This document shows, one piece after another, positions 1-58,655 of a stretch of DNA of 64,000 nucleotides. The stretch spans positions 12,277,001 to 12,341,000 of the forward strand of contig CM067527.1 in NCBI GenBank assembly GCA_034509925.1. The letters run 5' to 3'. Each line of letters starts with the position of its first letter. Positions within the stretch are counted from its first letter, which is position 1. A program made the translations under genes and the position numbers. The stretch comes from Hirudinaria manillensis (taxonomy: Eukaryota > Annelida > Clitellata > Hirudinida > Hirudinidae). The notes under the pieces are model-generated. The model had not been told where the DNA came from and searched no databases. It worked only from the letters and a program-made list of their open reading frames with translations.

Positions 1-2410
1 TATTTCCGATGACACGACAGATTCCAGAGAAATTCAATTTATTGAGCGTACATTGGAATCAGTTGAAAAGCAGATAATAGAATTGGAATTTCATGATCAA
101 GATAAACCTGTCACAGAATCATTGGAATACGTCACTGCACTAGAAAAACAATTGGAAAAAGAAGATGTCCAAGAAATAATAACGTCCACAGCCGATATCG
201 AAGTTACGCAAAAAGATGTGCCAACCCCAACGATCATATCTGAAATCGCTAAAGTAGTTCCAACAGAAGAAATCGAAGAGGTTGTCGAAAAAGAATTTGT
301 GACTGAGAAGGTGGTCGCTGAGGAAGAATCCGTTGCTCTGGAAGAAAAGCCGGAGGCAGAGAAAGAAGCGCCGGTAGAAAAAGCGGAAGTTGCCGTAGAA
401 AAACCTGAACCAGAAGAGTTCGAAGTAACAGAGGAAACTCTGAAAGAAGAGGTACTCGAAAGGCACGAAGAGGTCGAATTCGTAGAAACTGTCGTCGAGC
501 AATTGGAAGAATCAGCGAAAATCGAACCATCTTTGGAGATCGAGGTAAAAGAAACCGAGCCAAGTGTCACTGAAAAAGTTACACCGTCAGAAGAAATCAT
601 CGAAGCTGTCGAAGAAGAAATTGTGACTGAGAAGGTGGTCGCTGAGGTAGAATCCGTTACTCTGGAAGAAAAGCCTGAGGCAGAGAAAGAAGCGCCGGTA
701 GAAAAAGCGGAAGTTGCCGAAGAAAAACCTGAACCAGAGGAGCTCGAAGTAACAGAGGAAACTCTGAAAGAAGAGGTTCTCGAAAGGCACGAAGAGGTCG
801 AATTCGTAGAAACTGTCGCCGAGCAATTGGAAGAATCAGCGAAAATCGAACCATCTTTGGAGATCGAGGTAAAAGAAACCGAGCCACGTGTCACTGAAAA
901 AGTTACACCGTCAGAAGAAATCATCGAAGCCGTCGAAGAAGAAATTGTGACTGAGAAGGTGGTCGCTGAGGAAGAATCCGTTGCTCTGGAAGAAATGCCT
1001 GAGGCAGAGAAAGAAGCGCCGGTAGAAAAAGCGGAAGTTGCCGAAGAAAAACCTGAACCAGAAGAGCTCGAAGTAACAGAGGAAACTCTGAAAGAAGAGG
1101 TTCTCGAAAGGCACGAAGAGGTCGAATTCGTAGAAACTGTCGCCGAGCAATTGGAAGAATCAGCGAAAATCGAACCATCGTTGGAGGTCGAGGTAAAAGA
1201 AACCGAGCCAAGTGTCACTGAAAAAGTTACTCCGTCAGAAGAAATCATCGAAGCCGTCGAAGAAAAAATTGTGACTGAGAAGGTGGTCGCTGAGGTAGAA
1301 TCCGTTATTCTGGAAGAAATGCCTGAGGCAGAGAAAGAAGCGCCGGTAGAAAAAGCGGAAGTTGCCGAAGAAAAACCTGAACCAGAAGAGCTCGAAGTAA
1401 CAGAGGAAACTCTGAAAGAAGAGGTTCTCGAAAGGCACGAAGAGGTCGAATTCGTAGAAACTGTCGCCGAGCAATTGGAAGAATCAGCGAAAATCGAACC
1501 ATCTTTGGAGGTCGAGGTAAAAGAAACCGAGCCACGTGTCACTGAAAAAGTTACACCGTCAGAAGAAATCATCGAAGCCGTCGAAGAAGAAATTGTGACT
1601 GAGAAGGTGGTCGCTGAGGTAGAATCCGTTACTCTGGAAGAAAAGCCTGAGGCAGAAAAAGAAGTGCCGGTGGAAAAAGCGGAAGTTGCCGAAGAAAAAC
1701 CTGAACCAGAAGAGCTCGAAGTAACAGAGGAAACTCTGAAAGAAGAGGTTCTCGAAAGGCACGAAGAGGTCGAATTCGTAGAAACTGTCGCCGAGCAATT
1801 GGAAGAATCAGCGAAAATCGAACCATCTTTGGAGGTCGAGGTAAAAGAAACCGAGCCAAGTGTCACTGAAAAAGTTACTCCGTCAGAAGAAATCATCGAA
1901 GCCGTCGAAGAAGAAATTGTGACTGAGAAGGTGGTCGCTGAGGTAGAATCCGTTATTCTGGAAGAAAAGCCTGAGGCAGAAAAAGAAGTGCCGGTAGAAA
2001 AAGCGGAAGTTGCCGAAGAAAAACCTGAACCAGAAGAGCTCGAAGTGACAGAGGAAACTCTGAAAGAAGAGGTTCTCGAAAGGCACGAAGAGGTCGAATT
2101 CGTAGAAACTGTCGCCGAGCAATTGGAAGAATCAGCGAAAATCGAACCATCTTTGGAGATCGAGGTAAAAGAAACCGAGCCACGTGTCACTGCAAAAGTT
2201 ACACCGTCAGAAGAAATCATCGAAGCCGTCGAAGAAGAAATTGTGACTGAGAAGGTGGTCGCTGAGGAAGAATCCGTTGCTCTGGAAGAAATGCCTGAGG
2301 CAGAGAAAGAAGCGCCGGTAGAAAAAGCGGAAGTTGCCGAAGAAAAACCTGAACCAGAAGAGCTCGAAGTGACAGAGGAAACACTAAAAGAAGAAGTTTT
2401 CGAAGAATTC
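1..2410 (+). repeat. Higher-order block 0: partial linker plus 6-unit array
   Basis: The 3' half of a linker occupies bases 1-298 (type A: motifs DDTTDSREIQF, HDQDKP, EYVTALEK, TQKDVPTP). The array at 299-2410 has six full 324-bp units plus the 168-bp part-unit that precedes every complete linker. Its units closely match those of block 2, which has two fewer. Confidence 0.9.
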
Positions 2411-5400
2411 GAGGTAGGCACAGAGACAGTCGGTGAACCTTCAGAAATCGTACAACGTCTTGATACTGAGATAACGGAAACCTCGCCTCATGTCGTTGAA
2501 GAAGTTCTTGCGTTAGAAAAAACTATCGAGGCCGTGGACAAAGAAGAAACCGAGAAAATTGTACGAGAGGAAGAATTTGAGGAAATTGAATGTCCTTCTG
2601 ACGACCTTGACCAAATTCATGTCGACACTGTGGATGAAATCAAATTGAGACCAACATCTGATGAATATCTAGTTGAAAAGGTTATCACAACAAGCGACAT
2701 TTCTATTTCCGATGACACGACAGATTCCAGAGAAATTCAATTTATTGAGCGTACATTGGAATCAGTTGAAAAGCAGATAATAGAATTGGAATTTCATGAT
2801 CAAGATAAACCTGTCACAGAATCATTGGAATACGTCACTGCACTAGAAAAACAATTGGAAAAAGAAGATGTCCAAGAAATAATAACGTCCACAGCCGATA
2901 TCGAAGTTACGCAAAAAGATGTGCCAACCCCAACGATCATATCTGAAATCGCTAAAGTAGTTCCAACAGAAGAAATCGAAGAGGTTGTCGAAAAAGAATT
3001 TGTGACTGAGAAGGTGGTCGCTGAGGAAGAATCCGTTGCTCTGGAAGAAAAGCCGGAGGCAGAGAAAGAAGCGCCGGTAGAAAAAGCGGAAGTTGCCGTA
3101 GAAAAACCTGAACCAGAAGAGTTCGAAGTAACAGAGGAAACTCTGAAAGAAGAGGTTCTCGAAAGGCACGAAGAGGTCGAATTCGTAGAAACTGTCGCCG
3201 AGCAATTGGAAGAATCAGCGAAAATCGAACCATCTTTGGAGATCGAGGTAAAAGAAACCGAGCCACGTGTCACTGAAAAAGTTACACCGTCAGAAGAAAT
3301 CATCGAAGCCGTCGAAGAAGAAATTGTGACTGAGAAGGTGGTCGCTGAGGTAGAATCCGTTACTCTGGAAGAAAAGCCTGAGGCAGAAAAAGAAGTGCCG
3401 GTGGAAAAAGCGGAGGTTGCCGAAGAAAAACCTGAACCAGAAAAGCTCGAAGTAACAGAGGAAACTGTCGCCGAGCAATTGGAAGACACAGCGAAAATCG
3501 AGCCATCGTTGAAGGTCGAGTTAAAAGAAACCGAGCCAAGTGTCACTGAAAAAGTTACTCCGTCAGAAGAAATCATCGAAGCCGTCGAAGAAGAAATTGT
3601 GACTGAGAAGGTGGTCGCTGAGGTAGAATCCGTTATTCTGGAAGAAAAGCCTGAGGCAGAAAAAGAAGTGCCGGTAGAAAAAGCGGAAGTTGCCGAAGAA
3701 AAACCTGAACCAGAAGAGCTCGAAGTAATAGAGGAAACTCTGAAAGAAGAGGTTCTCGAAGAAGTCGAGGTAGGCACAGAAACAGTCGGTGTACCTTCAG
3801 AAATCGTACAACGTCTTGATACTGAGATAACGGAAACCTCGCCTCATCTCGTTGAAGAAGTTCTTGCGTTAGAAAAAACTATCGAGGCCGTGGACAAAGA
3901 AGAGACCGAGAAAATTGTACGAGAGGAAGAATTTGAGGAAATTGAATATCCTTCTCACGAACTCGACCAGATTCATGTCGACACTGTGGATGAAATCAAA
4001 TTGAGACCAACATCTGATGAATATCTAGTTGAAAAGGTTATCACAACAAGCGACATTTCTATTTCCGATGACACGACAGATTCCAGAGAAATTCAATTTA
4101 TTGAGCGTACATTGGAATCAGTTGAAAAGCAGATAATAGAATTGGAATTTCATGATCAAGATAAACCTGTCACAGAATCATTGGAATACGTCACTGCACT
4201 AGAAAAACAATTGGAAAAAGAAGATGTCCAAGAAATAATAACGTCCACAGCCGATATCGAAGTTACGCAAAAAGATGTGCCAACCCCAACGATCATATCT
4301 GAAATCGCTAAAGTAGTTCCAACAGAAGAAATCGAAGAGGTTGTCGAAAAAGAATTTGTGACTGAGAAGGTGGTCGCTGAGGAAGAATCCGTTGCTCTGG
4401 AAGAAAAGCCGGAGGCAGAGAAAGAAGCGCCGGTAGAAAAAGCGGAAGTTGCCGAAGAAAAACCTGAACCAGAAGAGCTCGAAGTAACAGAGGAAACTCT
4501 GAAAGAAGAGGTTCTCGAAAGGCACGAAGAGGTCGAATTCGTAGAAACTGTCGCCGAGCAATTGGAAGAATCAGCGAAAATCGAACCATCGTTGGAGGTC
4601 GAGGTAAAAGAAACCGAGCCAAGTGTCACTGAAAAAGTTACTCCGTCAGAAGAAATCATCGAAGCCGTCGAAGAAAAAATTGTGACTGAGAAGGTGGTCG
4701 CTGAGGTAGAATCCGTTATTCTGGAAGAAATGCCTGAGGCAGAGAAAGAAGCGCCGGTAGAAAAAGCGGAAGTTGCCGAAGAAAAACCTGAACCAGAAGA
4801 GCTCGAAGTAACAGAGGAAACTCTGAAAGAAGAGGTTCTCGAAAGGCACGAAGAGGTCGAATTCGTAGAAACTGTCGCCGAGCAATTGGAAGAATCAGCG
4901 AAAATCGAACCATCTTTGGAGGTCGAGGTAAAAGAAACCGAGCCACGTGTCACTGAAAAAGTTACACCGTCAGAAGAAATCATCGAAGCTGTCGAAGAAG
5001 AAATTGTGACTGAGAAGGTGGTCGCTGAGGTAGAATCCGTTACTCTGGAAGAAAAGCCTGAGGCAGAAAAAGAAGTGCCGGTGGAAAAAGCGGAAGTTGC
5101 CGAAGAAAAACCTGAACCAGAAGAGCTCGAAGTAACAGAGGAAACTCTGAAAGAAGAGGTTCTCGAAAGGCACGAAGAGGTCGAATTCGTAGAAACTGTC
5201 GCCGAGCAATTGGAAGAATCAGCGAAAATCGAACCATCTTTGGAGGTCGAGGTAAAAGAAACCGAGCCAAGTGTCACTGAAAAAGTTACTCCGTCAGAAG
5301 AAATCATCGAAGCCGTCGAAGAAGAAATTGTGACTGAGAAGGTGGTCGCTGAGGTAGAATCCGTTATTCTGGAAGAAAAGCCTGAGGCAGAAAAAGAAGT

Positions 5401-8400
5401 GCCGGTAGAAAAAGCGGAAGTTGCCGAAGAAAAACCTGAACCAGAAGAGCTCGAAGTGACAGAGGAAACTCTGAAAGAAGAGGTTCTCGAAAGGCACGAA
5501 GAGGTCGAATTCGTAGAAACTGTCGCCGAGCAATTGGAAGAATCAGCGAAAATCGAACCATCTTTGGAGATCGAGGTAAAAGAAACCGAGCCACGTGTCA
5601 CTGCAAAAGTTACACCGTCAGAAGAAATCATCGAAGCCGTCGAAGAAGAAATTGTGACTGAGAAGGTGGTCGCTGAGGAAGAATCCGTTGCTCTGGAAGA
5701 AATGCCTGAGGCAGAGAAAGAAGCGCCGGTAGAAAAAGCGGAAGTTGCCGAAGAAAAACCTGAACCAGAAGAGCTCGAAGTGACAGAGGAAACACTAAAA
5801 GAAGAAGTTTTCGAAGAATTCGAGGTAGGCACAGAGACAGTCGGTGAACCTTCAGAAATCGTACAACGTCTTGATACTGAGATAACGGAAACCTCGCCTC
5901 ATGTCGTTGAAGAAGTTCTTGCGTTAGAAAAAACTATCGAGGCCGTGGACAAAGAAGAAACCGAGAAAATTGTACGAGAGGAAGAATTTGAGGAAATTGA
6001 ATGTCCTTCTGACGACCTTGACCAAATTCATGTCGACACTGTGGATGAAATCAAATTGAGACCAACATCTGATGAATATCTAGTTGAAAAGGTTATCACA
6101 ACAAGCGACATTTCTATTTCCGATGACACGACAGATTCCAGAGAAATTCAATTTATTGAGCGTACATTGGAATCAGTTGAAAAGCAGATAATAGAATTGG
6201 AATTTCATGATCAAGATAAACCTGTCACAGAATCATTGGAATACGTCACTGCACTAGAAAAACAATTGGAAAAAGAAGATGTCCAAGAAATAATAACGTC
6301 CACAGCCGATATCGAAGTTACGCAAAAAGATGTGCCAACCCCAACGATCATATCTGAAATCGCTAAAGTACTTCCAACAGAAGAAATCGAAGAGGTTGTC
6401 GAAAAAGAATTTGTGACTGAGAAGGTGGTCGCTGAGGAAGAATCCGTTGCTCTGGAAGAAAAGCCGGAGGCAGAGAAAGAAGCGCCGGTAGAAAAAGCGG
6501 AAGTTGCCGTAGAAAAACCTGAACCAGAAGAGTTCGAAGTAACAGAGGAAACTCTGAAAGAAGAGGTTCTCGAAAGGCACGAAGAGGTCGAATTCGTAGA
6601 AACTGTCGCCGAGCAATTGGAAGAATCAGCGAAAATCGAACCATCTTTGGAGATCGAGGTAAAAGAAACCGAGCCACGTGTCACTGAAAAAGTTACACCG
6701 TCAGAAGAAATCATCGAAGCCGTCGAAGAAGAAATTGTGACTGAGAAGGTGGTCGCTGAGGAAGAATCCGTTGCTCTGGAAGAAATGCCGGAGGCAGAGA
6801 AAGAAGCGCCGGTAGAAAAAGCGGAAGTTGCCGAAGAAAAACCTGAACCAGAAGAGCTCGAAGTAACAGAGGAAACTCTGAAAGAAGAGGTTCTCGAAAG
6901 GCACGAAGAGGTCGAATTCGTAGAAACTGTCGCCGAGCAATTGGAAGAATCAGCGAAAATCGAACCATCGTTGGAGGTCGAGGTAAAAGAAACCGAGCCA
7001 AGTGTCACTGAAAAAGTTACTCCGTCAGAAGAAATCATCGAAGCCGTCGAAGAAGAAATTGTGACTGAGAAGGTGGTCGCTGAGGTAGAATCCGTTATTC
7101 TGGAAGAAATGCCTGAGGCAGAGAAAGAAGCGCCGGTAGAAAAAGCGGAAGTTGCCGAAGAAAAACCTGAACCAGAAGAGCTCGAAGTAACAGAGGAAAC
7201 TCTGAAAGAAGAGGTTCTCGAAAGGCACGAAGAGGTCGAATTCGTAGAAACTGTCGCCGAGCAATTGGAAGAATCAGCGAAAATCGAACCATCTTTGGAG
7301 ATCGAGGTAAAAGAAACCGAGCCACGTGTCACTGCAAAGGTTACACCGTCAGAAGAAATCATCGAAGCCGTCGAAGAAGAAATTGTGACTGAGAAGGTGG
7401 TCGCTGAGGAAGAATCCGTTGCTCTGGAAGAAATGCCTGAGGCAGAGAAAGAAGCGCCGGTAGAAAAAGCGGAAGTTGCCGAAGAAAAACCTGAACCAGA
7501 AGAGCTCGAAGTGACAGAGGAAACACTAAAAGAAGAAGTTTTCGAAGAATTCGAGGTAGGCACAGAGACAGTCGGTGAACCTTCAGAAATCGTACAACGT
7601 CTTGATACTGAGATAACGGAAACCTCGCCTCATGTCGTTGAAGAAGTTCTTGCGTTAGAAAAAACTATCGAGGCCGTGGACAAAGAAGAAACCGAGAAAA
7701 TTGTACGAGAGGAAGAATTTGAGGAAATTGAATGTCCTTCTGACGACCTTGACCAAATTCATGTCGACACTGTGGATGAAATCAAATTGAGACCAACATC
7801 TGATGAATATCTAGTTGAAAAGGTTATCACAACAAGCGACATTTCTATTTCCGATGACACGACAGATTCCAGAGAAATTCAATTTATTGAGCGTACATTG
7901 GAATCAGTTGAAAAGCAGATAATAGAATTGGAATTTCATGATCAAGATAAACCTGTCACAGAATCATTGGAATACGTCACTGCACTAGAAAAACAATTGG
8001 AAAAAGAAGATGTCCAAGAAATAATAACGTCCACAGCCGATATCGAAGTTACGGAAAAAGATGTGCCAACCCCAACGATCATATCTGAAATCGCTAAAGT
8101 AGTTCCAACAGAAGAAATCGAAGAGGTTGTCGAAAAAGAATTTGTGACTGAGAAGGTGGTCGCTGAGGAAGAATCCGTTGCTCTGGAAGAAAAGCCGGAG
8201 GCAGAGAAAGAAGCGCCGGTAGAAAAAGCGGAAGTTGCCGTAGAAAAACCTGAACCAGAAGAGTTCGAAGTAACAGAGGAAACTCTGAAAGAAGAGGTTC
8301 TCGAAAGGCACGAAGAGGTCGAATTCGTAGAAACTGTCGCCGAGCAATTGGAAGAATCAGCGAAAATCGAACCATCTTTGGAGATCGAGGTAAAAGAAAC

Positions 8401-41400: not shown

Positions 41401-44400
41401 AGCGCCGGTAGAAAAAGCGGAAGTTGCCGAAGAAAAACCTGAACCAGAAGAGCTCGAAGTAACAGAGGAAACTCTGAAAGAAGAGGTTCTCGAAAGGCAC
41501 GAAGAGGTCGAATTCGTAGAAACTGTTGCCGAGCAATTGGAAGAATCAGCGAAAATCGAACCATCTTTGGAGATCGAGGTAAAAGAAACCGAGCCAAGTG
41601 TCACTGAAAAAGTTACACTGTCAGAAGAAATCATCGAAGCTGTCGAAGAAGAAATTGTGACTGAGAAGGTGGTCGCTGAGGTAGAATCCGTTACTCTGGA
41701 AGAAAAGCCTGAGGCAGAGAAAGAAGAGCCGGTAGAAAAAGCGGAAGTTGCCGAAGAAAAACCTGAACCAGAAGAGCTCGAAGTAACAGAGGAAACTGTC
41801 GCCGAGCAATTGGAAGACACAGCGAAAATCGAGCCATCGTTGAAGGTCGAGTTAAAAGAAACCGAGCCAAGTGTCACTGAAAAAGTTACACCGTCAGAAG
41901 AAATCATCGAAGCTGTCGAAGAAGAAATTGTGACTGAGAAGGTGGTCGCTGAGGTAGAATCCGTTACTGTGGAAGAAAAGCCTGAGGCAGAGAAAGAAGT
42001 GCCGGTAGAAAAAGCGGAAGTTGCCGAAGAAAAACCTGAACCAGAAGAGGTTCTCGAAAGGCACGAAGAGGTAGAATTCGTAGAAACTGTCGCCGAGCAA
42101 TTGGAAAAAACAGCGAAAATCGAGCCATCGTTGGAAGTCGAGGTAAAAGAAACCGAGCCACGTGTCACTGAAAAAGTTACAACGTCAGAAGAAATCATCG
42201 AAGCTGTCGAAGAAGAAATTGTGACTGAGAAGGTGGTCGCTGAGGAAGAATCCGTTATTCTGGAAGAAAAGCCTGAGTCAGAAAAAGAAGTGCCGGTAGA
42301 AAAAGCGGAAGTTGCCGAAGAAAAACCTGAACCAGAAGAGCTCGAAGTGTCAGAGGAAACTCTGAAAGAAGAGGTTCTCGAAAGGCACGAAGAGGTCGAA
42401 TTCGTAGAAACTGTTGCCGAGCAAATGGAAGAATCAGCGAAAATCGAACCATCTTTGGAGATCGAGGTAAAAGAAACCGAGCCACGTGTCACTGAAAAAG
42501 TTACACCGTCAGAAGAAATCATCGAAGCTGTCGAAAAAGAAATTGTGACTGAGAAGGTGGTCGCTGAGGTAGAATCCGTTACTCTGGAAGAAAAGCCTGA
42601 GGCAGAGAAAGAAGCGCCGGTAGAAAAAGCGGAAGTTGCCGTAGAAAAACCTGAACCAGAAGAGTTCGAAGTAACAGAGGAAACTCTGAAAGAAGAGGTT
42701 CTCGAAAGGCACGAAGAGGTCGAATTCGTAGAAACTGTCGTCGAGCAATTGGAAGAATCAGCGAAAATCGAACCATCTTTGGAGATCGAGGTAAAAGAAA
42801 CCGAGCCAAGTGTCACTGAAAAAGTTACACTGTCAGAAGAAATCATCGAAGCTGTCGAAGAAGAAATTGTGACTGAGAAGGTGGTCGCTGAGGTAGAATC
42901 CGTTACTCTGGAAGAAAAGCCTGAGGCAGAGAAAGAAGAGCCGGTAGAAAAAGCGGAAGTTGCCGAAGAAAAACCTGAACCAGAAGAGCTCGAAGTAACA
43001 GAGGAAACTGTCGCCGAGCAATTGGAAGACACAGCGAAAATCGAGCCATCGTTGAAGGTCGAGTTAAAAGAAACCGAGCCAAGTGTCACTGAAAAAGTTA
43101 CACCGTCAGAAGAAATCATCGAAGCTGTCGAAGAAGAAATTGTGACTGAGAAGGTGGTCGCTGAGGTAGAATCCGTTACTGTGGAAGAAAAGCCTGAGGC
43201 AGAGAAAGAAGTGCCGGTAGAAAAAGCGGAAGTTGCCGAAGAAAAACCTGAACCAGAAGAGGTTCTCGAAAGGCACGAAGAGGTCGAATTCGTAGAATCT
43301 GTCGCCGAGCAATTGGAAGAAACTGCGAAAATCGAGCCATCGTTGGAGGTCGAGGTAAAAGAAACCGAGCCAAGTGTCACTGAAAAAGTTACACCGTCAG
43401 AAGAAATCATCGAAGCTGTCGAAGAAGAAATTGTGACTGAGAAGGTGGGCGCTGAGGTAGAATCCGTTACTGTGGAAGAAAAGCCTGAGGCAGAGAAAGA
43501 AGTGCCGGTAGAAAAAGCGGAAGTTGCCGAAGAAAAACCTGAACCAGAAGAGCTCGAAGTAACAGAGGAAACTCTGAAAGAAGTTCTCGAAGAAGTCGAG
43601 GTAGGCACAGAAACAGTCGGTGTACCTTCCGAAATCGTACAACGTCTTGATACTGAGATATCGGAAACCTCGCCTCATCAAGTTGAAGAAGTTCTTCCGT
43701 TAGAAAAAACTCTCGAGGCCGTGGTAAAAGAAGAGACCGAGAAAATTGTACGTGAGGAAGAATTTGAGGAAATTGAATATCCTTCTGACGACCTTGACCA
43801 AATTCATATCGACACTGTGGATGAAATCAAATTGAGACCAACATCTGATGAATATCTAGTTGAAAAGGTTATCACAACAAGCGACATTTGTATTTCTGAT
43901 GACGCGACAGAATCCAGAGAAATTCAAGTTATTGAGCGCACATTGGAATCAGTTGAAAAGCAGATAATAGAATTGGAATTTGATGAACAAGATAAACCTG
44001 TCACGGAATCATTGGAATACGACACTGCACTAGAAAAACAATTGGAAAAAGAAGATGTTCAAGAAATAATAACGTCCACAGCCGATATCGAAGTTACGGA
44101 AGAATATGTGCCAACCCCAACGATCATATCTGAAACCGCTAAATTAGTTACAACGAGAGAAATCGAAGAGGTTGTCGAAAAAGAATTTGTGACTGAGAAG
44201 GTGGTCGTTGAAGAAGAATCCGTTACTCTGGAAGAAAAGCCTGACGAAGAGAAAGAAGTGCCGGTAGAAAAAGCGGAAGTTGCCGAAGAAAAACCTGAAC
44301 CAGAAGAGCTCGAAGTAACAGAGGAAACTGTCGCCGAGCAATTGGAAGACACAGCGAAAATCGAGCCATCGTTGAAGGTCGAGTTAAAAGAAACCGAGCC

Positions 44401-47400
44401 AAGTGTCACTGAAAAAGTTACTCCGTCAGAAGAAATCATCGAAGCCGTCGAAGAAGAAATTGTGACTGAGAAGGTGGTCGCTGAGGTAGAATCCGTTATT
44501 CTGGAAGAAAAGCCTGAGGCAGAAAAAGAAGTGCCGGTAGAAAAAGCGGAAGTTGCCGAAGAAAAACCTGAACCAGAAGAGCTCGAAGTAACAGAGGAAA
44601 CTCTGAAAGAAGAGGTTCTCGAAGAAGTCGAGGTAGGCACAGAAACAGTCGGTGTACCTTCAGAAATCGTACAACGTCTTGCTACTGAGATATCGGAAAC
44701 CTCGCCTCATCAAGTTGAAGAAGTTCTTCCGTTAGAAAAAACTCTCGAGGCCGTGGTAAAAGAAGAGACCGAGAAAATTGTACGTGAGGAAGAATTTGAG
44801 GAAATTGAATATCCTTCTGACGACCTTGACCAAATTCATGTCGACACTGTGGATGAAATCAAATTGAGACCAACATCTGATGAATATCTAGTTGAAAAGG
44901 TTATCACAACAAGCGACATTTCTATTTCTGATGACGCGACAGAATCCAGAGAAATTCAAGTTATTGAGCGCACATTGGAATCAGTTGAAAAGCAGATAAT
45001 AGAATTGGAATTTGATGATCAAGATAAACCTGTCACGGAATCATTGGAATACGACACTGCACTAGAAAAACAATTGGAAAAAGAAGATGTTCAAGAAATA
45101 ATAACGTCCACAGCCGATATCGAAGTTACGGAAGAATATGTGCCAACCCCAACGATCATATCTGAAACCGCTAAATTAGTTACAACGAGAGAAATCGAAG
45201 AGGTTGACGAAAAAGAATTTGTGACTGAGAAGGTGGTCGTTGAGGAAGAATCCGTTACTCTGGAAGAAAAGCCTGACGAAGAGAAAGAAGTGCCGGTAGA
45301 AAAAGCGGAAGTTGCCGAAGAAAAACCTGAACCAGAAGAGCTCGAAGTAACAAAGGAAACTCTGAAAGAAGAGGTTCTCGAAAGGCACGAAGAGGTCGAA
45401 TTCGTAGAAACTGTCGCCGAGCAATTGGAAAAAACAGCGAAAATTGAGCCATCGTTGGAGGTCGAGGTAAAAGAAACCGAGCCACGTGTCACTGAAAAAG
45501 TTACACCGTCAGAAGAAATCATCGAAGCTGTCGAAGAAGAAATTGTGACTGAGAAGGTGGTCGCTGAGGTAGAATCCGTTACTGTGGAAGAAAAGCCTGA
45601 GGCAGAGAAAGAAGTGCCGGTAGAAAAAGCGGAAGTTGCCGAAGAAAAACCTGAACCAGAAGAGGTTCTCGAAAGGCACGAAGAGGTCGAATTCGTAGAA
45701 TCTGTCGCCGAGCAATTGGAAGAAACTGCGAAAATCGAGCCATCGTTGGAGGTCGAGGTAAAAGAAACCGAGCCAAGTGTCACTGAAAAAGTTACACCGT
45801 CAGAAGAAATCATCGAAGCTGTCGAAGAAGAAATTGTGACTGAGAAAGTGGGCGCTGAGGTAGAATCCGTTACTGTGGAAGAAAAGCCTGAGGCAGAGAA
45901 AGAAGTGCCGGTAGAAAAAGCGGAAGTTGCCGAAGAAAAACCTGAACCAGAAGAGCTCGAAGTAACAGAGGAAACTCTGAAAGAAGTTCTCGAAGAAGTC
46001 GAGGTAGGCACAGAAACAGTCGGTGTACCTTCCGAAATCGTACAACGTCTTGATACTGAGATATCGGAAACCTCGCCTCATCAAGTTGAAGAAGTTCTTC
46101 CGTTAGAAAAAACTCTCGAGGCCGTGGTAAAAGAAGAGACCAAGAAAATTGTACGTGAGGAAGAATTTGAGGAAATTGAATATCCTTCTGACGACCTTGA
46201 CCAAATTCATATCGACACTGTGGATGAAATCAAATTGAGACCAACATCTGATGAATATCTAGTTGAAAAGGTTATCACAACAAGCGACATTTGTATTTCT
46301 GATGACGCGACAGAATCCAGAGAAATTCAAGTTATTGAGCGCACATTGGAATCAGTTGAAAAGCAGATAATAGAATTGGAATTTGATGAACAAGATAAAC
46401 CTGTCACGGAATCATTGGAATACGACACTGCACTAGAAAAACAATTGGAAAAAGAAGATGTTCAAGAAATAATAACGTCCACAGCCGATATCGAAGTTAC
46501 GGAAGAATATGTGCCAACCCCAACGATCATATCTGAAACCGCTAAATTAGTTACAACGAGAGAAATCGAAGAGGTTGTCGAAAAAGAATTTGTGACTGAG
46601 AAGGTGGTCGTTGAAGAAGAATCCGTTACTCTGGAAGAAAAGCCTGACGAAGAGAAAGAAGTGCCGGTAGAAAAAGCGGAAGTTGCCGAAGAAAAACCTG
46701 AACCAGAAGAGCTCGAAGTAACAGAGGAAACTGTCGCCGAGCAATTGGAAGACACAGCGAAAATCGAGCCATCGTTGAAGGTCGAGTTAAAAGAAACCGA
46801 GCCAAGTGTCACTGAAAAAGTTACTCCGTCAGAAGAAATCATCGAAGCCGTCGAAGAAGAAATTGTGACTGAGAAGGTGGTCGCTGAGGTAGAATCCGTT
46901 ATTCTGGAAGAAAAGCCTGAGGCAGAAAAAGAAGTGCCGGTAGAAAAAGCGGAAGTTGCCGAAGAAAAACCTGAACCAGAAGAGCTCGAAGTAACAGAGG
47001 AAACTCTGAAAGAAGAGGTTCTCGAAGAAGTCGAGGTAGGCACAGAAACAGTCGGTGTACCTTCAGAAATCGTACAACGTCTTGCTACTGAGATATCGGA
47101 AACCTCGCCTCATCAAGTTGAAGAAGTTCTTCCGTTAGAAAAAACTCTCGAGGCCGTGGTAAAAGAAGAGACCGAGAAAATTGTACGTGAGGAAGAATTT
47201 GAGGAAATTGAATATCCTTCTGACGACCTTGACCAAATTCATGTCGACACTGTGGATGAAATCAAATTGAGACCAACATCTGATGAATATCTAGTTGAAA
47301 AGGTTATCACAACAAGCGACATTTCTATTTCTGATGACGCGACAGAATCCAGAGAAATTCAAGTTATTGAGCGCACATTGGAATCAGTTGAAAAGCAGAT

Positions 47401-50400
47401 AATAGAATTGGAATTTGATGATCAAGATAAACCTGTCACGGAATCATTGGAATACGACACTGCACTAGAAAAACAATTGGAAAAAGAAGATGTTCAAGAA
47501 ATAATAACGTCCACAGCCGATATCGAAGTTACGGAAGAATATGTGCCAACCCCAACGATCATATCTGAAACCGCTAAATTAGTTACAACGAGAGAAATCG
47601 AAGAGGTTGACGAAAAAGAATTTGTGACTGAGAAGGTGGTCGTTGAGGAAGAATCCGTTACTCTGGAAGAAAAGCCTGACGAAGAGAAAGAAGTGCCGGT
47701 AGAAAAAGCGGAAGTTGCCGAAGAAAAACCTGAACCAGAAGAGCTCGAAGTAACAAAGGAAACTCTGAAAGAAGAGGTTCTCGAAAGGCACGAAGAGGTC
47801 GAATTCGTAGAAACTGTCGCCGAGCAATTGGAAAAAACAGCGAAAATTGAGCCATCGTTGGAGGTCGAGGTAAAAGAAACCGAGCCACGTGTCACTGAAA
47901 AAGTTACACCGTCAGAAGAAATCATCGAAGCTGTCGAAGAAGAAATTGTGACTGAGAAGGTGGTCGCTGAGGTAGAATCCGTTACTGTGGAAGAAAAGCC
48001 TGAGGCAGAGAAAGAAGTGCCGGTAGAAAAAGCGGAAGTTGCCGAAGAAAAACCTGAACCAGAAGAGGTTCTCGAAAGGCACGAAGAGGTCGAATTCGTA
48101 GAATCTGTCGCCGAGCAATTGGAAGAAACTGCGAAAATCGAGCCATCGTTGGAGGTCGAGGTAAAAGAAACCGAGCCAAGTGTCACTGAAAAAGTTACAC
48201 CGTCAGAAGAAATCATCGAAGCTGTCGAAGAAGAAATTGTGACTGAGAAGGTGGGCGCTGAGGTAGAATCCGTTACTGTGGAAGAAAAGCCTGAGGCAGA
48301 GAAAGAAGTGCCGGTAGAAAAAGCGGAAGTTGCCGAAGAAAAACCTGAACCAGAAGAGCTCGAAGTAACAGAGGAAACTCTGAAAGAAGAGGTTCTCGAA
48401 AGGCACGAAGAGGTCGAATTCGTAGAAACTGTCGCCGAGCAATTGGAAGAAACAGCGAAAATCGAGCCATCGTTGGAGGTCGAGGTAAAAGAAACCGAGC
48501 CAAGTGTCACTGAAAAAGTTACACCGTCAGAAGAAATCATCGAAGCCGTCGAAGAAGAAATTGTGACTGAGAAGGTGATCGCTGAGGTAGAATCCGTTAC
48601 TGTGGAAGAAAAGCCTGAGGCAGAGAAAGAAGTGCCGGTAGAAAAAGCGGAAGTTGCCGAAGAAAAACCTGAACCAGAAGAGCTCGAAGTAACAGAGGAA
48701 ACTCTGAAAGAAGAGGTTCTCGAAAGGCACGAAGAAGTCGAATTCGTAGAAACTGTCGCCGAGCAATTGGAAAAAACAGCGAAAATCGAGACATCGTTGG
48801 AGGTCGAGGTAAAAGAAACCGAGCCAAGTGTCACTGAAAAAGTTACACCGTCAGAAGAAATCATCGAAGCCGTCGAAGAAGAAATTGTGACTGAGAAGGT
48901 GATCGCTGAGGTAGAATCCGTTACTGTGGAAGAAAAGCCTGAGGCAGAGAAAGAAGTGCCGGTAGAAAAAGCGGAAGTTGCCGAAGAAAAACCTGAACCA
49001 GAAGAGCTCGAAGTAACAGAGGAAACTCTGAAAGAAGAGGTTCTCGAAGAAGTCGAGGTAGGCACAGAAACAGTCGGTGTACCTTCAGAAATCGTACAAC
49101 GTCTTGATACTGAGATATCGGAAACCTCGTCTCATCAAGTTGAAGAAGTTCTTCCGTTAGAAAAAACTCTCGAGGCCGTGGTAAAAGAAGAGACCGAGAA
49201 AATTGTACGTGAGGAAGAATTTGAGGAAATTGAATATCCTTCTGACGACCTTGACCAAATTCATGTCGACACTGTGGATGAAATCAAATTGAGACCAACA
49301 TCTGATGAATATCTAGTTGAAAAGGTTATCACAACAAGCGACATTTCTATTTCTGATGACGCGACAGAATCCAGAGAAATTCAAGTTATTGAGCGCACAT
49401 TGGAATCAGTTGAAAAGCAGATAATAGAATTGGAATTTGATGATCAAGATAAACTTGTCACGGAATCATTGGAATACGACACTGCACTAGAAAAACAATT
49501 GGAAAAAGAAGATGTCCAAGAAATAATAACGTCCACAGCCGATATCGAAGTTACGGAAAAAGATGTGCCAACCCCAACGATCATATCTGAAACCGCTAAA
49601 TTTGTTACAACGGGAGAAATCGAAGAGGTTGTCGAAAAAGAATTTGTGACTGAGAAGGTGGTCGTTGAGGAAGAATCCGTTACTCTGGAAGAAAAGCCTG
49701 ACGAAGAGAAAGAAGTGCCGGTAGAAAAAGCGGAAGTTGCCGAAGAAAAACCTGAACCAGAAGAGCTCGAAGTAACAGAGGAAACTCTGAAAGAAGAGGT
49801 TCTCGAAAGGCACGAAGAAGTCGAATTCGTAGAAACTGTCGCCGAGCAATTGGAAAAAACAGCGAAAATCGAGCCATCGTTGGAGATCGAGGTAAAAGAA
49901 ACCGAGCCAAGTGTCACTGAAAAAGTTACACCGTCAGAAGAAATCATCGAAGCCGTCGAAGAAGAAATTGTGACTGAGAAGGTGGTCGTTGAGGAAGAAT
50001 CCGTTACTCTGGAAGAAAAGCCTGACGAAGAGAAAGAAGTGCCGGTAGAAAAAGCGGAAGTTGCCGATGAAAAACCTGAACCAGAAGAGCTGGAAGTAAC
50101 AGAGGAAAATCTGAAAGAAGAGGTTCTCGAAAGGCACGAAGAGGTCGAATTCGTAGAAACTGTCGCCGAGCAATTGGAAGAAACAGCGAAAATTGAGCCA
50201 TCGTTGGAGGACGAGGTAAAAGAAACCGAGCCAAGTGTCACTGAAAAAGTTACACCGTCAGAAGAAATCATCGAAGCCGTCGAAGAAGAAATTGTGACTG
50301 AGAAGGTGATCGCTGAGGTAGAATCCGTTACTCTGGAAGAAAAGCCTGAGGAAGAGAAAGAAGTGGCGGTAGAAAAAGCGGAAGTTGCCGAAGAAAAACC

Positions 50401-52628
50401 TGAACCAGAAGAGCTCGAAGTAACAGAGGAAACTCTGAAAGAAGAGGTTCTCGAAAAGCACGAAGAGGTCGAATTCGTAGAAACTGTCGCCGAGCAATTG
50501 GAAGAAACAGCGAAAATCGAGCCATCGTTGGAGGTCGAGGTAAAAGAAACCGAGCCACGTGTCACTGAAAAAGTTACACCGTCAGAAGAAATCATCGAAG
50601 CTGTTGAAGAAGAAATTGTGACTGAGAAGGTGGTCGCTGAGGTAGAATCCGTTACTGTGGAAGAAAAGCCTGAGGCAGAGAAAGAAGTGCCGGTAGAAAA
50701 AGCGGAAGTTGCCGAAGAAAAACCTGAACCAGAAGAGCTCGAAGTAACAGAGGAAACTCTGAAAGAAGAGGTTCTCGAAGAAGTCGAGGTAGGCACAGAA
50801 ACAGTCGGTGTACCTTCAGAAATCGTACAACGTCTTGATACTGAGATATCGGAAACCTCGCCTCATCAAGTTGAAGAAGTTTTTCCGTTAGAAAAAACTC
50901 TCGAGGCCGTGGTAAAAGAAGAGACCGAGAAAATTGTACGTGAGGAAGAATTTGAGGAAATTGAATATCCTTCTGACGACCTTGACCAAATTCATGTCGA
51001 CACTGTGGATGAAATCAAATTGAGACCAACATCTGATGAATATCTAGTTGAAAAGGTTATCACAACAAGCGACATTTCTATTTCTGATGACGCGACAGAA
51101 TCCAGAGAAATTCAAGTTATTGAGCGTACATTGGAATCAGTTGAAAAGCAGATAATAGAATTGGAATTTGATGATCAAGATAAACCTGTCACGGAATCAT
51201 TGGAATACGACACTGCACTAGAAAAACAATTGGAAAAAGAAGATGTTCAAGAAATAATAACGTCCACAGCCGATATCGAAGTTACGGAAGAATATGTGCC
51301 AACCCCAACGATCATATCTGACACCGCTAAATTAGTTACAACGGGAGAAATCGAAGAGGTTGTCGAAAAAGAATTTGTGACTGAGAAGGTGGTCGCTGAG
51401 GAAGAATCCGTTACTCTGGAAGAAAAGCCTGATGCAGAGAAAGAAGTGCCGGTAGAAAAAGGGGAAGTTGCCGAAGAAAAACCTGAACCAGAAGAGCTTG
51501 AAATGACAGAAGAAACTCTGAAAGAAGAGGTTCTCGAAAGGCACGAAGAGGTCGAATTCGTAGAAAATCTCGCCGAGCAATTGGAAGAATCAGCGAAAAT
51601 CGAACCATCTTTGGAGGTCGAGGTTAAAGAAACTGAACGAGCCTCTCAGACATTTGAAGATTCATCAGATATTGCAGCCTCTTTTGTCTTTGACGGAGAA
51701 ATTTTTCTGTCTGGGAACCTATCTGACGAGAATGTCATCTCTTCAACATTGGTTCCTTGTACTCAATATGGTTCAGTCAAAAAACAAAAGTTTGATACTT
51801 CGCTTGGTATTTTTGATCCTTTTATTAATAAGGAATGTAATATTGGAGATGTTGTATACGATGACCTGTCTCTAGATGATGGTCCTCCATCTAATTATGA
51901 TTATCTGCCTGAGCATGGCCTCTATTGTTCCTCACAACACGAAGAACTTCGACCTCCACCTGTTGATATATTTGACGACAATCGTGAATGTTCGTCTTCT
52001 TCTGGTAATGTTGTTACTAAAATGATTAGATCTGTTAATCTTGATGGGGATATTAAAGAAACGCTTATTACTGAAACCTTTCCTGATTCTGACAAGGTTG
52101 ATTCTGCTAGCCCTAGATCGAGTATTAGTGAGATTCTAGAAAAGAATTACATTTCACCCGAAGATGAATTTTCGAATTTTCCTGTCATGGTTTATACCGA
52201 GACCTTAGAAACGGAACCTGAAATCGAATCAGAACATTTGGAATACCAAGAATTATTACCTGACGGTACCGTTGTCTCTCGAAAATTATCGCAATTGAAA
52301 CAAACGCAATCAATGACAAGGAGAATATTTTTACATGGAGCTGACGATGGTTTTTCATTCCTTGATGAAACAACTGGGTGTCAAGATTCCGATAACATGC
52401 AGATTAGCAGATTTTCTGACAAACAATCAGAAAGTCCAACCACATATTCAGAGACATTAAAAACAGAAGAAACCGTAGATGGAATTTCTATCAAAAAAGT
52501 CACAACGACTACTTCCAGTCAGCAACTGGTTACTGAAAGGACAGTTCTAAGCGTCAGAGGCTCTCTCAATAACTTATCGAAAGAAAGTGAATTATCGGAT
52601 CTTCTGCGACAATTTTCTGGCGATAAAG
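1..52628 (+). CDS. Giant repetitive exon of a probable giant-ankyrin (Ank2-XL/UNC-44-like) gene, 5' partial
   Basis: One frame stays open from base 2 to the splice donor at 52628 (AAAG|GTAAGA, phase 1): 17,542 codons plus one base. The next in-frame stop (52661-52663) lies just inside the intron. The left edge falls inside a linker, so the exon continues upstream. Codons 1-17,212 or so are a nested repeat (108-aa units in arrays separated by 197-aa linkers), extremely rich in Glu, with Val, Lys, Pro and Thr and almost no Cys or Trp, so it is probably an extended, strongly acidic, disordered chain. The last 330 codons are unique. Every length change among repeats is a multiple of three, which supports translation. 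In invertebrate giant ankyrins such exons encode axonal tails that organise microtubules and the spectrin-actin membrane skeleton; that role here is inferred. A titin-like PEVK spring is the main alternative, but the C-terminal exons show no Ig, FN3 or kinase domain. Coding status is near certain; family identity is moderate. Confidence 0.9.
2411..3766 (+). repeat. Higher-order block 1: linker plus 2-unit array
   Basis: Linker 2411-3001 (591 bp) is type A with the variant ECPSDDLDQ and the FEEFEVGTETVGEP entry shared with blocks 3 and 4. The array has one full unit and one 273-bp unit lacking the 51 bp that encode LKEEVLERHEEVEFVET. Confidence 0.9.
3767..5821 (+). repeat. Higher-order block 2: linker plus 4-unit array
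   Basis: Linker 3767-4357 (591 bp) is type A with the variant EYPSHELDQ. Four full 324-bp units plus the 168-bp part-unit follow. Confidence 0.9.
5822..7552 (+). repeat. Higher-order block 3: linker plus 3-unit array
   Basis: Linker 5822-6412 (591 bp) is type A, ECPSDDLDQ form, with the private change KVLPTEE near its end. Three full units plus the part-unit follow. Confidence 0.9.
7553..19600 (+). repeat. Higher-order block 4: linker plus 35-unit array, the longest
   Basis: Linker 7553-8143 (591 bp) is type A, ECPSDDLDQ form, with TEKDVPTP in place of TQKDVPTP. The array at 8144-19600 measures 11,457 bp: 34 full units, one 273-bp unit near 19290 and the 168-bp part-unit. Marker variants recur at whole-unit spacings: SVTQEEK near 9478, 11746, 13042 and 14986; EEVDFVETVAEQM near 9940, 10912, 15448 and 16420. 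Recent multi-unit duplications therefore built this array. Confidence 0.92.
19601..22525 (+). repeat. Higher-order block 5: linker plus 7-unit array
   Basis: Linker 19601-20191 (591 bp) is type A, EYPSHELDQ form, TEKDVPTP. Seven units follow, two carrying the 51-bp deletion (near 20985 and 21900), plus the part-unit. A TVSEKV variant at about 21978 is private to this block. Confidence 0.9.
22526..24205 (+). repeat. Higher-order block 6: mosaic linker plus 3-unit array
   Basis: Linker 22526-23116 (591 bp) is type A in its first two thirds but ends with TEEYVPTPTIISETAKLVTT, the form found in the right-hand clade. Three units, one with the 51-bp deletion, plus the part-unit follow. Confidence 0.9.
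24206..26806 (+). repeat. Higher-order block 7: mosaic linker plus 6-unit array
   Basis: Linker 24206-24796 (591 bp) has the same mosaic as block 6 and a private TSPYLVEE (His to Tyr). Six units follow, two with the 51-bp deletion, plus the part-unit. Confidence 0.9.
26807..29083 (+). repeat. Higher-order block 8: linker plus 5-unit array
   Basis: Linker 26807-27397 (591 bp) is type A with the KVDPTEE variant. Five units, two with the 51-bp deletion, plus the part-unit follow. Block 9 repeats it 2277 bp later with two units fewer. Confidence 0.9.
29084..30763 (+). repeat. Higher-order block 9: linker plus 3-unit array
   Basis: Linker 29084-29674 (591 bp) shares the KVDPTEE variant with block 8. 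It is the last linker of the left clade. Three units, one with the 51-bp deletion, plus the part-unit follow. Confidence 0.9.
30764..32782 (+). repeat. Higher-order block 10: junction linker plus 4-unit array
   Basis: Linker 30764-31354 (591 bp) begins as type A (TEITETSPHLVEEVLALEK) and continues as type B (YPSDDLDQ, DDATESREIQV, FDDQDKP, EYDTALEK). It marks the switch between linker clades. Four units follow with a 33-bp and a 3-bp deletion, plus the part-unit. Confidence 0.9.
32783..33760 (+). repeat. Higher-order block 11: linker plus one shortened unit
   Basis: Linker 32783-33373 (591 bp) is type B with TSPHQVEEVLPLEK and DEQDKP. A single 219-bp unit carries both the 51-bp deletion and a 54-bp deletion that fuses two EEKP stretches near 33420. 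The part-unit follows. This is the shortest block. Confidence 0.9.
33761..36097 (+). repeat. Higher-order block 12: linker plus 5-unit array
   Basis: Linker 33761-34351 (591 bp) is type B with RLATEIS (Asp to Ala). Five units follow, one lacking 9 bp (IIEEEIV near 34660) and one lacking 33 bp, plus the part-unit. Confidence 0.9.
36098..37129 (+). repeat. Higher-order block 13: linker plus one 273-bp unit
   Basis: Linker 36098-36688 (591 bp) is type B with the left-clade stretch HLVEEVLALEK and private GVTSEIV and LESIEKQ changes. One unit with the 51-bp deletion plus the part-unit follows. Confidence 0.9.
37130..38851 (+). repeat. Higher-order block 14: linker plus 3-unit array
   Basis: Linker 37130-37720 (591 bp) is type B with RLATEIS, as in blocks 12, 17 and 19. 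Three units follow, one with the same 9-bp deletion as block 12, plus the part-unit. It looks like a copy of block 12 that is two units shorter. Confidence 0.9.
38852..43597 (+). repeat. Higher-order block 15: linker plus 13-unit array
   Basis: Linker 38852-39442 (591 bp) is type B with HLVEEVLALEK. Thirteen units follow, carrying one 54-bp, two 51-bp, two 33-bp and one 3-bp deletion. Units resembling the left half (VEQLEESAKIEPSLEIEV forms) occur here at about 40,700-43,000, so material has been exchanged across the exon. An internal duplication of 1536 bp is visible (about 40.7 kb against 42.3 kb). Confidence 0.9.
43598..44629 (+). repeat. Higher-order block 16: linker plus one 273-bp unit
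   Basis: Linker 43598-44188 (591 bp) is type B with DICISDD (a rare Cys) and HIDTVDE, shared only with block 18. One unit with the 51-bp deletion plus the part-unit follows. Confidence 0.9.
44630..46000 (+). repeat. Higher-order block 17: linker plus 2-unit array
   Basis: Linker 44630-45220 (591 bp) is type B with RLATEIS. Two units follow with a 33-bp and a 3-bp deletion. Blocks 16 and 17 together make a 2403-bp super-unit. Confidence 0.9.
46001..47032 (+). repeat. Higher-order block 18: copy of block 16
   Basis: Linker 46001-46591 (591 bp) repeats the DICISDD and HIDTVDE variants exactly 2403 bp after block 16, with one new change (ETKKIV for ETEKIV). One unit with the 51-bp deletion plus the part-unit follows. 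Confidence 0.9.
47033..49054 (+). repeat. Higher-order block 19: copy of block 17 extended by two units
   Basis: Linker 47033-47623 (591 bp) has RLATEIS and sits 2403 bp after that of block 17. Four units follow, one with the 33-bp deletion, plus the part-unit. Confidence 0.9.
49055..50785 (+). repeat. Higher-order block 20: linker plus 3-unit array
   Basis: Linker 49055-49645 (591 bp) is type B with private SSHQVEE and KLVTES changes and a TEKDVPTP, KFVTTGE ending. Three full units plus the part-unit follow. These units are more diverged (VADEKP, EENLKEE, SLEDEV, VAVEKAE) than those in the centre. Confidence 0.9.
50786..51637 (+). repeat. Higher-order block 21: last linker and terminal degenerate unit
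   Basis: Linker 50786-51376 (591 bp) is type B with private EVFPLEK and IISDTAK. The final unit from 51377 is diverged (VEKGEVAEE, LEMTEETL, VENLAEQ) and breaks off at KETER, where unique sequence begins. Greater divergence of the edge copies is typical of arrays homogenised by recombination from within. Confidence 0.9.
51638..52628 (+). other. Unique C-terminal tail at the end of the giant exon
   Basis: About 330 codons of non-repeated coding sequence, acidic and rich in Ser, Thr and Asp, with no membrane segment or recognisable globular domain. Two stretches fit my memory of invertebrate ankyrin tails: VVTKMIRSVNLDGD (near 52010-52050), and LPDGTVVSRK followed by a QTQSMTRRI stretch and a Gly (52256-52340). 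A further TTTTSSQQLVTERTV stretch lies near 52500. I could not check the match by alignment. The coding run ends in phase 1 at 52628. Confidence 0.6.
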
Positions 52629-52720
52629 GTAAGATGAAGCACTTTTCATCAATTTGTATTTAGTGCCGCCGCAATGCTATCAATATTTCAACATTTTCAA
52701 AGTACGTGTATAAATTTCAG

Positions 52721-52816
52721 AGATAGAAAAAGATGATCAAGCTACTTCAAAAGATGATCAAGCGAGTAGCTCAAGTTCAGAAGTCGCCCAGCTGGATGAT
52801 GTTTGCTTACAACAAG
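52721..52816 (+). CDS. Internal exon of the giant gene (96 bp)
   Basis: Acceptor AATTTCAG at 52720 and donor CAAG|GT at 52816 bound an exon that enters and leaves in phase 1, so it matches the exon on each side. It encodes 32 residues beginning EIEKDDQATSKDDQ and ending in DDVCLQQ, acidic and Ser-rich like the flanking tail. Being symmetric, it can be skipped without changing frame. The donor GTTTTT is weak, which would suit alternative use. Confidence 0.7.
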
Positions 52817-53011: not shown

Positions 53012-54816
53012 AGATCGAATCGGAACTCGATAAATATTCACAAAGCACAGACATCGACGAACCAGTTGATTATGAAATTGAGAATGGAACTCAGCCGAAA
53101 TGTGAAACTTTGAAAGAAAAATGGTCTAAACCAGACGAATCAGAGCCAACGAATAAAGATTGTTTCTCAGGTGTGCACGAAGGGTTAGAATTTCATGAGT
53201 CAAAAGAAGGACAAGAACTCCCATCAGATTTAAAATATCAAGATAGTTGTCAAGTTCCTCAGACGACCGCTTTGCAAGGCTGTATTTTGCCCGCTATATC
53301 AGAAGAGGACGAAAAGAAGTCGAGTTCTCAAAGCAAGACAACGACTTCTTCAGACAAACTAGAAAATGAAACGTCGAATTCGGATTCTTCAAAAAAAAGA
53401 CAGAAATCCAATGCTCTTCGTAATTTAGAAAATAAATTAATGAGCAAAAAATATGCTGATAATACCTCAGTCTCATCTTCGTTGCTTGAATTCGAAAGTT
53501 TGGAAAAAGAAATCCAAGAAAAAGGTAGCATTGATTCAGTTTCCCTAGGACGTTTAAGCACGAGAGGAGTAGTGGAGAGAGATGACGTTTCAGTGACTTC
53601 ATCTCTTGCTGAGTTTGAAAAACTTGAGAAAGAGTGCTTTATTCCATCAGATTCCCAAGGAACTGGTTCGAAAAGTTCTAGCTCTTCGAATATGGATTTC
53701 GAAGTGACTAGAGAGGGTCACAAAAGTCAATTGACGGAGCAGTTAAGATCATCATCATCCTCGCTAGCTGAGTTTGAACAATTGGAACAACAACTGACAG
53801 TGGACGAGGAAGTTTCTGTTGAAGCCAGAAAGGTGGCGAGTATGCTAGAAAAAGGTTCCCTGCCAATAAAGGATGATTTTTCCGACAGTGATTCCAGCAA
53901 AGGTAAATCTAACAAGGATTGTCAAGAAGCCACAGAAAAAAAGAAGCTAACCGAGAAACCTATCTATCCACCTTACCAAGACATAGTTCAAATTATCAGA
54001 CAAGCTTCGGAAAAGGTTCCGTTCTTTGAAGACTTCCAACAAACAGGAGACAAAACTGGTAGCCTAAAACTCCAAGCTTCAGTTTTAAAATCGTCAGAAA
54101 TTGTCGGTCCTTTAACTGACCAAAGCAAATACGTGAGATCACAAAGTAGCTTCATGGAGATTTCAAGTGATTCCCTATCCTCAAAACACACTGCGACATC
54201 TACTCAATCTTTACTTCGTGAAGAATCTGAGATGTTTACATCAACAGACTCTTTAGAGGACGAACAGACAGATGAGATCATTCAGTTGATGATGAGATCG
54301 ACAGATTCACTTGAAACCCAGCAAAATCAAGAAAGCTTCGATACCGATTCATTACAGGACATGACTACGGCTATAACAAAGAGCATGTCACAAGATTCTT
54401 TGAAAGAAACTATTGTTGAAGCCATGGAAATTTCGGCAGAATCAGGAGCCTGGAGCCGTTCAAGTTCACAACAATCCTCTGCAACCTTGATATGTGACCT
54501 CGCAAGCAAAGGCACAGCTACTTCATTGGGTTTCTCGCCCCATACGTCATTAATGAAGGACAGTCTAATGACTCTGGATAACGTTAGTATCACCGACCCG
54601 AAGATTATTGATTCCGAGGGTAATGCTTACGAACCACTGGACAACGGAAGAACCACAAAAGATTTGAAAAAACATCGAAAAAAGCAGGGCGACCTTTCTT
54701 TTGAGAAGAGTACCAGCTCTGATTCTTCAATTCAGGATACCTTAATGGAGTCATACGAAAGTTCATCGACTGCATCCTTGGTAGCACAAGGTACAGTCAG
54801 TTACATATCGAATTAA
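53012..54816 (+). CDS. Large Ser-rich C-terminal exon of the giant gene
   Basis: The acceptor TTTCTAG at 53011 opens in phase 1, and the frame runs about 600 codons to TAA at 54814-54816. It can instead be spliced out of a CAAG|GTACAG donor at 54790, again phase 1. The protein is Ser, Asp and Glu rich and low in hydrophobics. Three copies of a SLxEFExLExx motif lie near 53480, 53600 and 53760, and four DSL(E/Q/K) motifs near 54247-54395, followed by an SAESGAWSRSSS stretch. I associate such motifs with the spectrin-skeleton ankyrin tails of invertebrates; this is from memory and unaligned. No death domain is present. Read-through to the stop gives the ending LVAQGTVSYISN. Confidence 0.75.
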
Positions 54817-55205: not shown

Positions 55206-55261
55206 AGGAGGGCATACTGACACTAAGCGACGATGAATGGAGTGAATTCAGAAAACAATGA
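55206..55261 (+). CDS. Candidate alternative terminal coding exon
   Basis: Acceptor ACCAG at 55205. Joined in phase 1 to the donor at 54790 it encodes EEGILTLSDDEWSEFRKQ and then TGA. The transcribed exon may run on to a CAAG|GTAAAT donor at 55274. The other two frames stop within a few codons, so only the phase that fits the upstream donor is open. No long repeat or domain is present; the ending is short and acidic. Transcript evidence is needed to prove use. Confidence 0.5.
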
Positions 55262-58640: not shown

Positions 58641-58655
58641 GTTCTGCATTTTGTT

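Follow-up and report, generated by a model that had tools for sequence, protein, structure and literature searches.

The window, by which we mean the whole 64,000-nucleotide stretch of Hirudinaria manillensis DNA analyzed here (contig C2, positions 12277001-12341000), probably holds most of one giant exon of ~70 kb that lies after the death domain of an ankyrin gene, grew by in-frame duplication of modules, and encodes a neuronal spacer tail. Its most likely product is the acidic tail, 23,400 residues long, of a giant neuronal ankyrin, and the spacer role is proposed by analogy with Drosophila Ank2-XL. We reached this reading from the window itself, twelve adjacent 10-kb stretches, and searches of the genome assembly (148,429,096 bases in 23 contigs). 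Those searches gave at least 46 exon-level innexin matches and at least 63 antistasin matches, as expected of a leech, and speak against a tunicate origin, which the giant ankyrin of Ciona had suggested. Two stretches upstream of the window, 12192501-12195000 and 12207501-12215000, consist of N. The features discussed below, all on the plus strand and numbered by window position unless marked as genome positions, are as follows.

Genome C2:12259310-12329628, plus strand: whole giant ankyrin exon, predicted from the open frame and splice signals; the assembled length is 70,319 bp, with 17,691 bp to the left of the window
1..52628, plus strand: part of the predicted giant exon inside the window, from the open frame, with acceptor TCTGTTGCAG/AGATG and donor AAAG/GTAAGA (slashes mark the borders)
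1..51638 (genome 12260314-12328638, 68,324 bp in total), plus strand: array of ~108-residue R modules and 201-residue S modules, from a tandem repeat scan
2411..3013, plus strand: example S module of 201 residues, one of 24 in the whole array
51639..52628, plus strand: non-repetitive C-terminal part of the exon, ~331 residues, with tail motifs in common with a second ankyrin-like gene
52629..52634, plus strand: predicted 5′ splice site of the giant exon, GTAAGA, from a splice-signal scan
52721..52816, plus strand: predicted next exon, 96 bp, phase 1-1, with AG/GT borders, a multiple of three, and no stop
53012..54790, plus strand: predicted next exon, 1,779 bp, phase 1-1, within open frame 53005-54813, with AG/GT borders and a multiple of three
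55206..55261, plus strand: predicted last coding stretch, EEGILTLSDDEWSEFRKQ plus stop, with a CAG acceptor, in frame, ending in TGA

The open frame and the ankyrin gene upstream

By scanning all frames of the window, we found a plus-strand frame that is free of stops from base 2 up to a TAG at 52661-52663. An earlier note on this DNA had claimed an uninterrupted run of at least 17,542 codons that did not reach its left end. Its count was correct, and the frame does go on for 4.5 kb left of the window, to C2:12272493, for a total of 57,168 nt or 19,056 codons without a stop. The ~2 MDa that the note had assigned to the encoded piece also agrees with our estimate of 2.16 MDa for the 19,045 residues on this side of a one-base shift near C2:12272493. 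Beyond the shift, the shifted frame is open for a further 13,293 nt leftward, to 12259249, and the reading of the repeats is unchanged. The genome search gave matching frame lengths of 19,056 and 4,431 residues. From base composition alone, ~1,431 stops would be expected in 23,439 codons. Left of the shift, the reading frame held none, versus 265 and 215 in the other two plus-strand frames; right of it, the reading frame held one, made by the shift itself, versus 1,171 and 1,194 in the others. Long frames also occur on the minus strand across the array, reaching 1,541 residues in the window (97-50796) and 9,609 nt from stop to stop over the whole exon. We rejected these as genes: with 291 to 837 stops per minus-strand frame over the exon, they are side effects of the purine-rich coding strand, and they could mislead annotation.

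As the earlier note had predicted, ankyrin repeats, a ZU5, and a UPA lie to the left of the exon, and we located a death domain there as well. The repeats number 23, whole or part, on the plus strand at C2:12245830-12253654, close to the ~24 of a canonical ankyrin; the search listed 24 rows, the extra one being a chance-like 10-residue match far upstream, and neither the first repeat nor a start codon was located. They are followed on the same strand by a first ZU5 at 12255129 (E 7.8e-18; end part, E 8.7e-5), a UPA in two pieces (12257165-12257677), and a death domain (PF00531, 12258295-12258531) that passed the cut-off with E 1.2e-5 in the genome search and 2.3e-7 when run alone. The order is thus 23 ankyrin repeats, ZU5, UPA, death domain, and then the exon, all within 14 kb upstream of the exon, with the death domain match ending at 12258531 and the giant exon starting at 12259310. 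Of seven upstream pieces run against Pfam, six returned the expected family, and the piece expected to hold a second ZU5 (L011:8769-9080) had no Pfam match. Against PDB, the second UPA piece matched only Ankyrin-3, Ankyrin-2, and Ankyrin-1 at E 0.01, one ankyrin-repeat piece had Ankyrin-1/2 chains on top among the best 60 of 307 matches, and the death-domain piece had no match at E 0.1. Because these upstream domains stand in canonical order, we conclude that the gene encodes an ankyrin and that its long exon follows the death domain, which supports the note's assignment of the frame to an ankyrin tail. On this gene order we rejected the vertebrate-type arrangement, in which the exon precedes the death domain. 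We also noted, upstream of the ankyrin gene on the minus strand, a single 1,344-residue frame rich in leucine-rich repeats (C2:12229312-12233343; L013:2312-6343).

The one-base shift may reflect an assembly error or a real truncation. Near C2:12272493, the assembly is one A short in an A5 run, so that the site reads GTCACTGAAAAG, whereas 130 of the 131 copies of the site read GTCACTGAAAAAG (GAAAAAG, versus GAAAAG in 1/131). As assembled, the A4 run closes the reading 13.2 kb into the exon. One-base losses in A runs are a common long-read error, and the missing A is most likely an error of assembly or sequencing. Were the loss real in this animal, in at least one haplotype, translation in that allele would stop ~13.2 kb into the exon, leaving the remaining 57 kb, and with it the window frame, untranslated. 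We consider this unlikely. The assembly does show A4 at this one site of 131, with the frame closing just past it, but the 57 kb downstream contain no further stop, and R-like sequence showed no other gap that breaks the frame. Therefore, any real loss must be very recent. Moreover, the assembly quality score of 33.53 given in the genome report (PMC10671345) permits, by our arithmetic, ~31 errors in 70 kb.

Exon borders and splicing

As borders of the giant exon, we chose the acceptor TCTGTTGCAG/AGATG at 12259310 and the donor AAAG/GTAAGA after window position 52628. The earlier note had ended its exon at 52628, exactly the last base before this donor-like site, and had proposed a single coding exon longer than 52.6 kb. 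The features of one exon are indeed present, and from its splice signals and open frame the predicted exon is even longer, at ~70.3 kb. The definable upstream exons, of 45 and 57 bp, are multiples of three and stop-free when read with one base carried over (phase 1-1). The 57-bp exon has a weak acceptor, AAG, and another small exon is suspected between the defined ones. Neither the C-terminal part of the giant exon (51639..52628) nor the following 1,779-bp exon (53012..54790) contained a Pfam family above cut-off. As assembled, the giant exon is 70,319 bp long, or 2 mod 3, and one added base would make it symmetric like its neighbors. Skipping it would therefore keep the frame and yield a short ankyrin, as judged from phase, and the giant exon is probably present in only some transcripts.

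A related possibility is that the array is transcribed but partly spliced out at weak sites inside its modules, giving a family of shorter tails rather than one 70-kb exon. Such internal splicing is compatible with the sequence, and the exon borders given here are predictions. The array contains 147 weak donors of the form AGGTAAAA, and when we used 12 predicted acceptors of the same gene as a yardstick for pyrimidine tracts, 47 of its 8,067 AGs reached the yardstick median and 3,627 were no poorer than the weakest of the 12. However, good signals are scarce. We found no GTRAGT donor in the array versus 2 in 8.5 kb of flank, and AGs with a tract at or above the median occurred at 0.68 per kb in the array versus 13.9 per kb in the flank. 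In addition, the array is 65% purine, with GAAGAA at 16 per kb, and purine-rich, GAAGAA-rich sequence usually favors exon inclusion. We regard such splicing within the modules as improbable, to about the same degree as a real one-base loss, and retain the single giant exon as the preferred reading.

Several other loci were observed in passing. Further along the window, positions 59909-64000 on the plus strand hold probable exons of a sodium:solute symporter-like gene that seemingly runs past the window end. A Pfam SSF match lies at 60208-60393 (E 0.0007; 19 bits versus a cut-off of 22.8), and a second stretch, at 63570-63689, had no match. A 271-residue frame at 57825-58637 gave a borderline thioesterase-like match (PF13279, 25.6 bits versus a cut-off of 25.5), and it is adjoined by a 169-bp tandem repeat of 2.1 copies (58649-58995). 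Elsewhere in the genome, C9:3026446-3027786 has a COX1 match that scores the same as the mitochondrial contig C23, pointing to a recent nuclear mitochondrial copy or to assembly carry-over.

The repeat array

The array holds 137 R anchors, with 88 of 135 counted intervals exactly 108 residues (324 nt) long, and 24 S modules, each of exactly 201 residues (603 bp). Inside the exon, it is flanked by ~335 unique residues before it and 331 after it. In a genome search with the S module, all 24 matches fell within this array, and against solved structures the module had no match at E 1. Right of 12310000 the array contains just 7 of the 88 R units of 324 nt; these are more diverged from the R consensus, with mean differences per 10-kb bin of 9.0 and 10.0 versus 4.8 to 5.9 elsewhere. 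Array growth may therefore have been more recent on the left, with the caveat that the consensus is dominated by left units.

We next weigh whether the exon length could be an artefact of assembly, with repeat copies merged or added and a true module number quite different from the one counted. The 88 R units are on average 97.35% alike, only 50 of them are distinct, and exact repeats of 2 kb are present. Against this, no exact repeat of 3 kb was found in the array, and the genome report gives a mean HiFi read length of 18.73 kb (PMC10671345). Because these reads are longer than the exact repeats, they can span and place the modules, and we consider a grossly wrong module number very unlikely.

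The unique ends of the exon offer a view of what preceded the array. A second leech ankyrin-like gene, on contig C5 near 5.57 Mb, has a ZU5 and a UPA, and its tail carries motifs with homology to both ends of the giant exon. The C-terminal part of the exon matched the tail of the C5 gene at 27 of 63 residues (E 8e-14), with a second motif at E 2e-5, and the N-terminal unique part also shares a motif with that tail (E 8e-4). By contrast with the giant exon, the C5 gene has no long plus-strand open frame within 10 kb (longest, 906 nt). We therefore read the giant exon as an old ankyrin tail exon inside which the array has grown. Altogether, further ankyrin-like ZU5-UPA genes were seen at C5:5570001-5580000 and C6:6409001-6419000, with no plus-strand frame above 1,056 nt in either 10-kb stretch. 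The C5 gene also has a stretch that looks death-domain-like by eye and is absent from the Pfam death matches.

The openness of the frame is partly due to the copying of an open unit, and thus a fairer test of coding lies in the changes since copying. We tallied these changes in the 24 S modules and in those 88 R units that are exactly 324 nt long, leaving out R units of other lengths. Approximately 5.5 distinct nonsense changes were expected and none was seen (P about 0.004, assuming independent changes). Of 83 gaps relative to the R consensus (a figure that counts copies rather than separate events), 54 were multiples of three, 28 fell into 14 pairs of neighbors, each pair adding up to a multiple of three, and 1 was a single base. 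Constraint on the residues themselves appeared looser. For R, a sample of 800 out of 3,828 module pairs gave a dN/dS of 0.56; for S, the value over 276 pairs was 0.74. Transversions were no rarer at non-synonymous than at synonymous sites (24/491 versus 4/102 in R; 29/932 versus 4/192 in S), and R diversity was nearly equal at the three codon positions (0.028, 0.025, and 0.027). These three results together indicate that the amino acid sequence is weakly constrained. They are also the points in favor of a non-coding satellite that looks coding only because its unit has a length divisible by three and is open by chance, but we consider this explanation highly implausible given that every S-module match in the genome lies inside this gene, the array shares its frame with the non-repetitive ankyrin tail motifs before and after it (each on its own side of the shift), nonsense changes are absent, gaps keep the frame, and the composition is typical of ankyrin long exons.

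Comparison with other giant ankyrins and the predicted tail

In human genes, exons reach about 21 kb in MUC16 and 17 kb in titin, and some genes of bacteria are longer than 70 kb. The earlier note's suggestion that this exon is among the longest in any genome was too wide, as longer uninterrupted coding frames occur in bacteria. Among titles and abstract openings on long exons and proteins, giant ankyrins, and leech genomes, we found no animal coding exon named as longer than the leech one, and no literature joining Hirudinaria manillensis and ankyrin; for both searches, subscription journals were mostly outside the scope.

Giant ankyrin exons have been surveyed across bilaterians, with long exons reported in 23 of 36 ankyrins at a mean length of 8,103 ± 4,850 bp (n = 30) (PMC5135030). 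As described in that survey, these exons share a common composition (S, E, T, D, K, and P above 55%, with S+E about 25%) and show fast sequence turnover, a subset contain repeats of 36-228 bp, and in protostomes the long exon sits after the death domain. The leech exon resembles them in being very long and open, rich in E, S, T, D, K, and P (61.7% over 23,437 residues, with S+E at 37.6%), placed in the protostome position, and built on the repeats that are optional in the group. It differs in size, at ~13 SD above the survey mean by our arithmetic from the reported mean and SD, and in its repeats of 324 and 603 bp.

The closest described counterpart is Drosophila Ank2-XL, in which a long exon after the death domain is organized around a core repeat array and has been postulated to act as a spacer (PMC5135030). 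The fly array is given there as 93 repeats of 76 residues, and its C-terminal repeat region has been termed essential for microtubule interaction (PMC6703079). The leech repeats are instead of 108 and 201 residues, and the 70.3-kb leech exon is about three times the 21 kb of the fly array (93 × 228 bp; our arithmetic). Vertebrate ANK2 and ANK3 likewise produce a giant isoform through inclusion of one long exon. There, however, the exon precedes the death domain, and the AnkG exons are described as having no repeat array (PMC5135030). Giant repeat-array ankyrin exons are an already established kind, which the earlier note did not mention, and the leech exon looks exceptional among them in size.

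As read, the tail comprises 23,437 residues, with a mass of 2.66 MDa, a pI of 4.05, and a net charge of about −5,981, which makes it extremely acidic as well as repetitive. An ankyrin core has ~1,500 residues. With the giant exon adding ~23,439 codons and the three following exons another 643, the total comes to ~25,600 residues. Whether the whole 70.3-kb exon is included and translated we regard as evenly balanced; if so, the product of nearly 3 MDa would be the largest ankyrin, the exon possibly the longest coding exon of any animal, and its length a trait.

From these features and the fly analogy, we infer each step that goes beyond the tail of an ankyrin. The array would have grown by repeated in-frame duplication of 108-residue and 201-residue acidic modules in the older ankyrin tail exon. 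Where the exon was included in mRNA, presumably in neurons, a giant ankyrin of roughly 25,600 residues would result, in which membrane proteins and spectrin would be bound by the folded N-terminal part. The tail, with its pI of about 4.05 and charge of about −6,000, may extend into the cytoplasm and act there as a flexible spacer or brush; by analogy with the fly array, such a brush would be charged, very long, and anchored to the spectrin cortex. Like Drosophila Ank2-XL, it might organize microtubules and contribute to axon caliber or to a diffusion barrier.

The roles of giant ankyrins include the shaping of axon initial segments, axon caliber, and synapses. In the fly, axon diameter is reported to need only a fraction of the repeat array (PMC5135030). 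With an exon about three times as long as the fly array, the leech offers a natural extreme in which tail length could be tested against microtubule spacing or axon diameter. Its exon likewise makes a demanding case for splicing (exon definition across 70 kb), translation, and gene annotation. Leeches have long been used for single-neuron work. The published gene prediction for H. manillensis was run on a repeat-masked genome (PMC10671345), and the giant exon may therefore well be hidden from annotation. If the proposed reading is true, the fully stretched tail would exceed 8 micrometers, and its length would be set by recent in-frame duplication of modules, perhaps varying between individuals and between leeches of different axon caliber.
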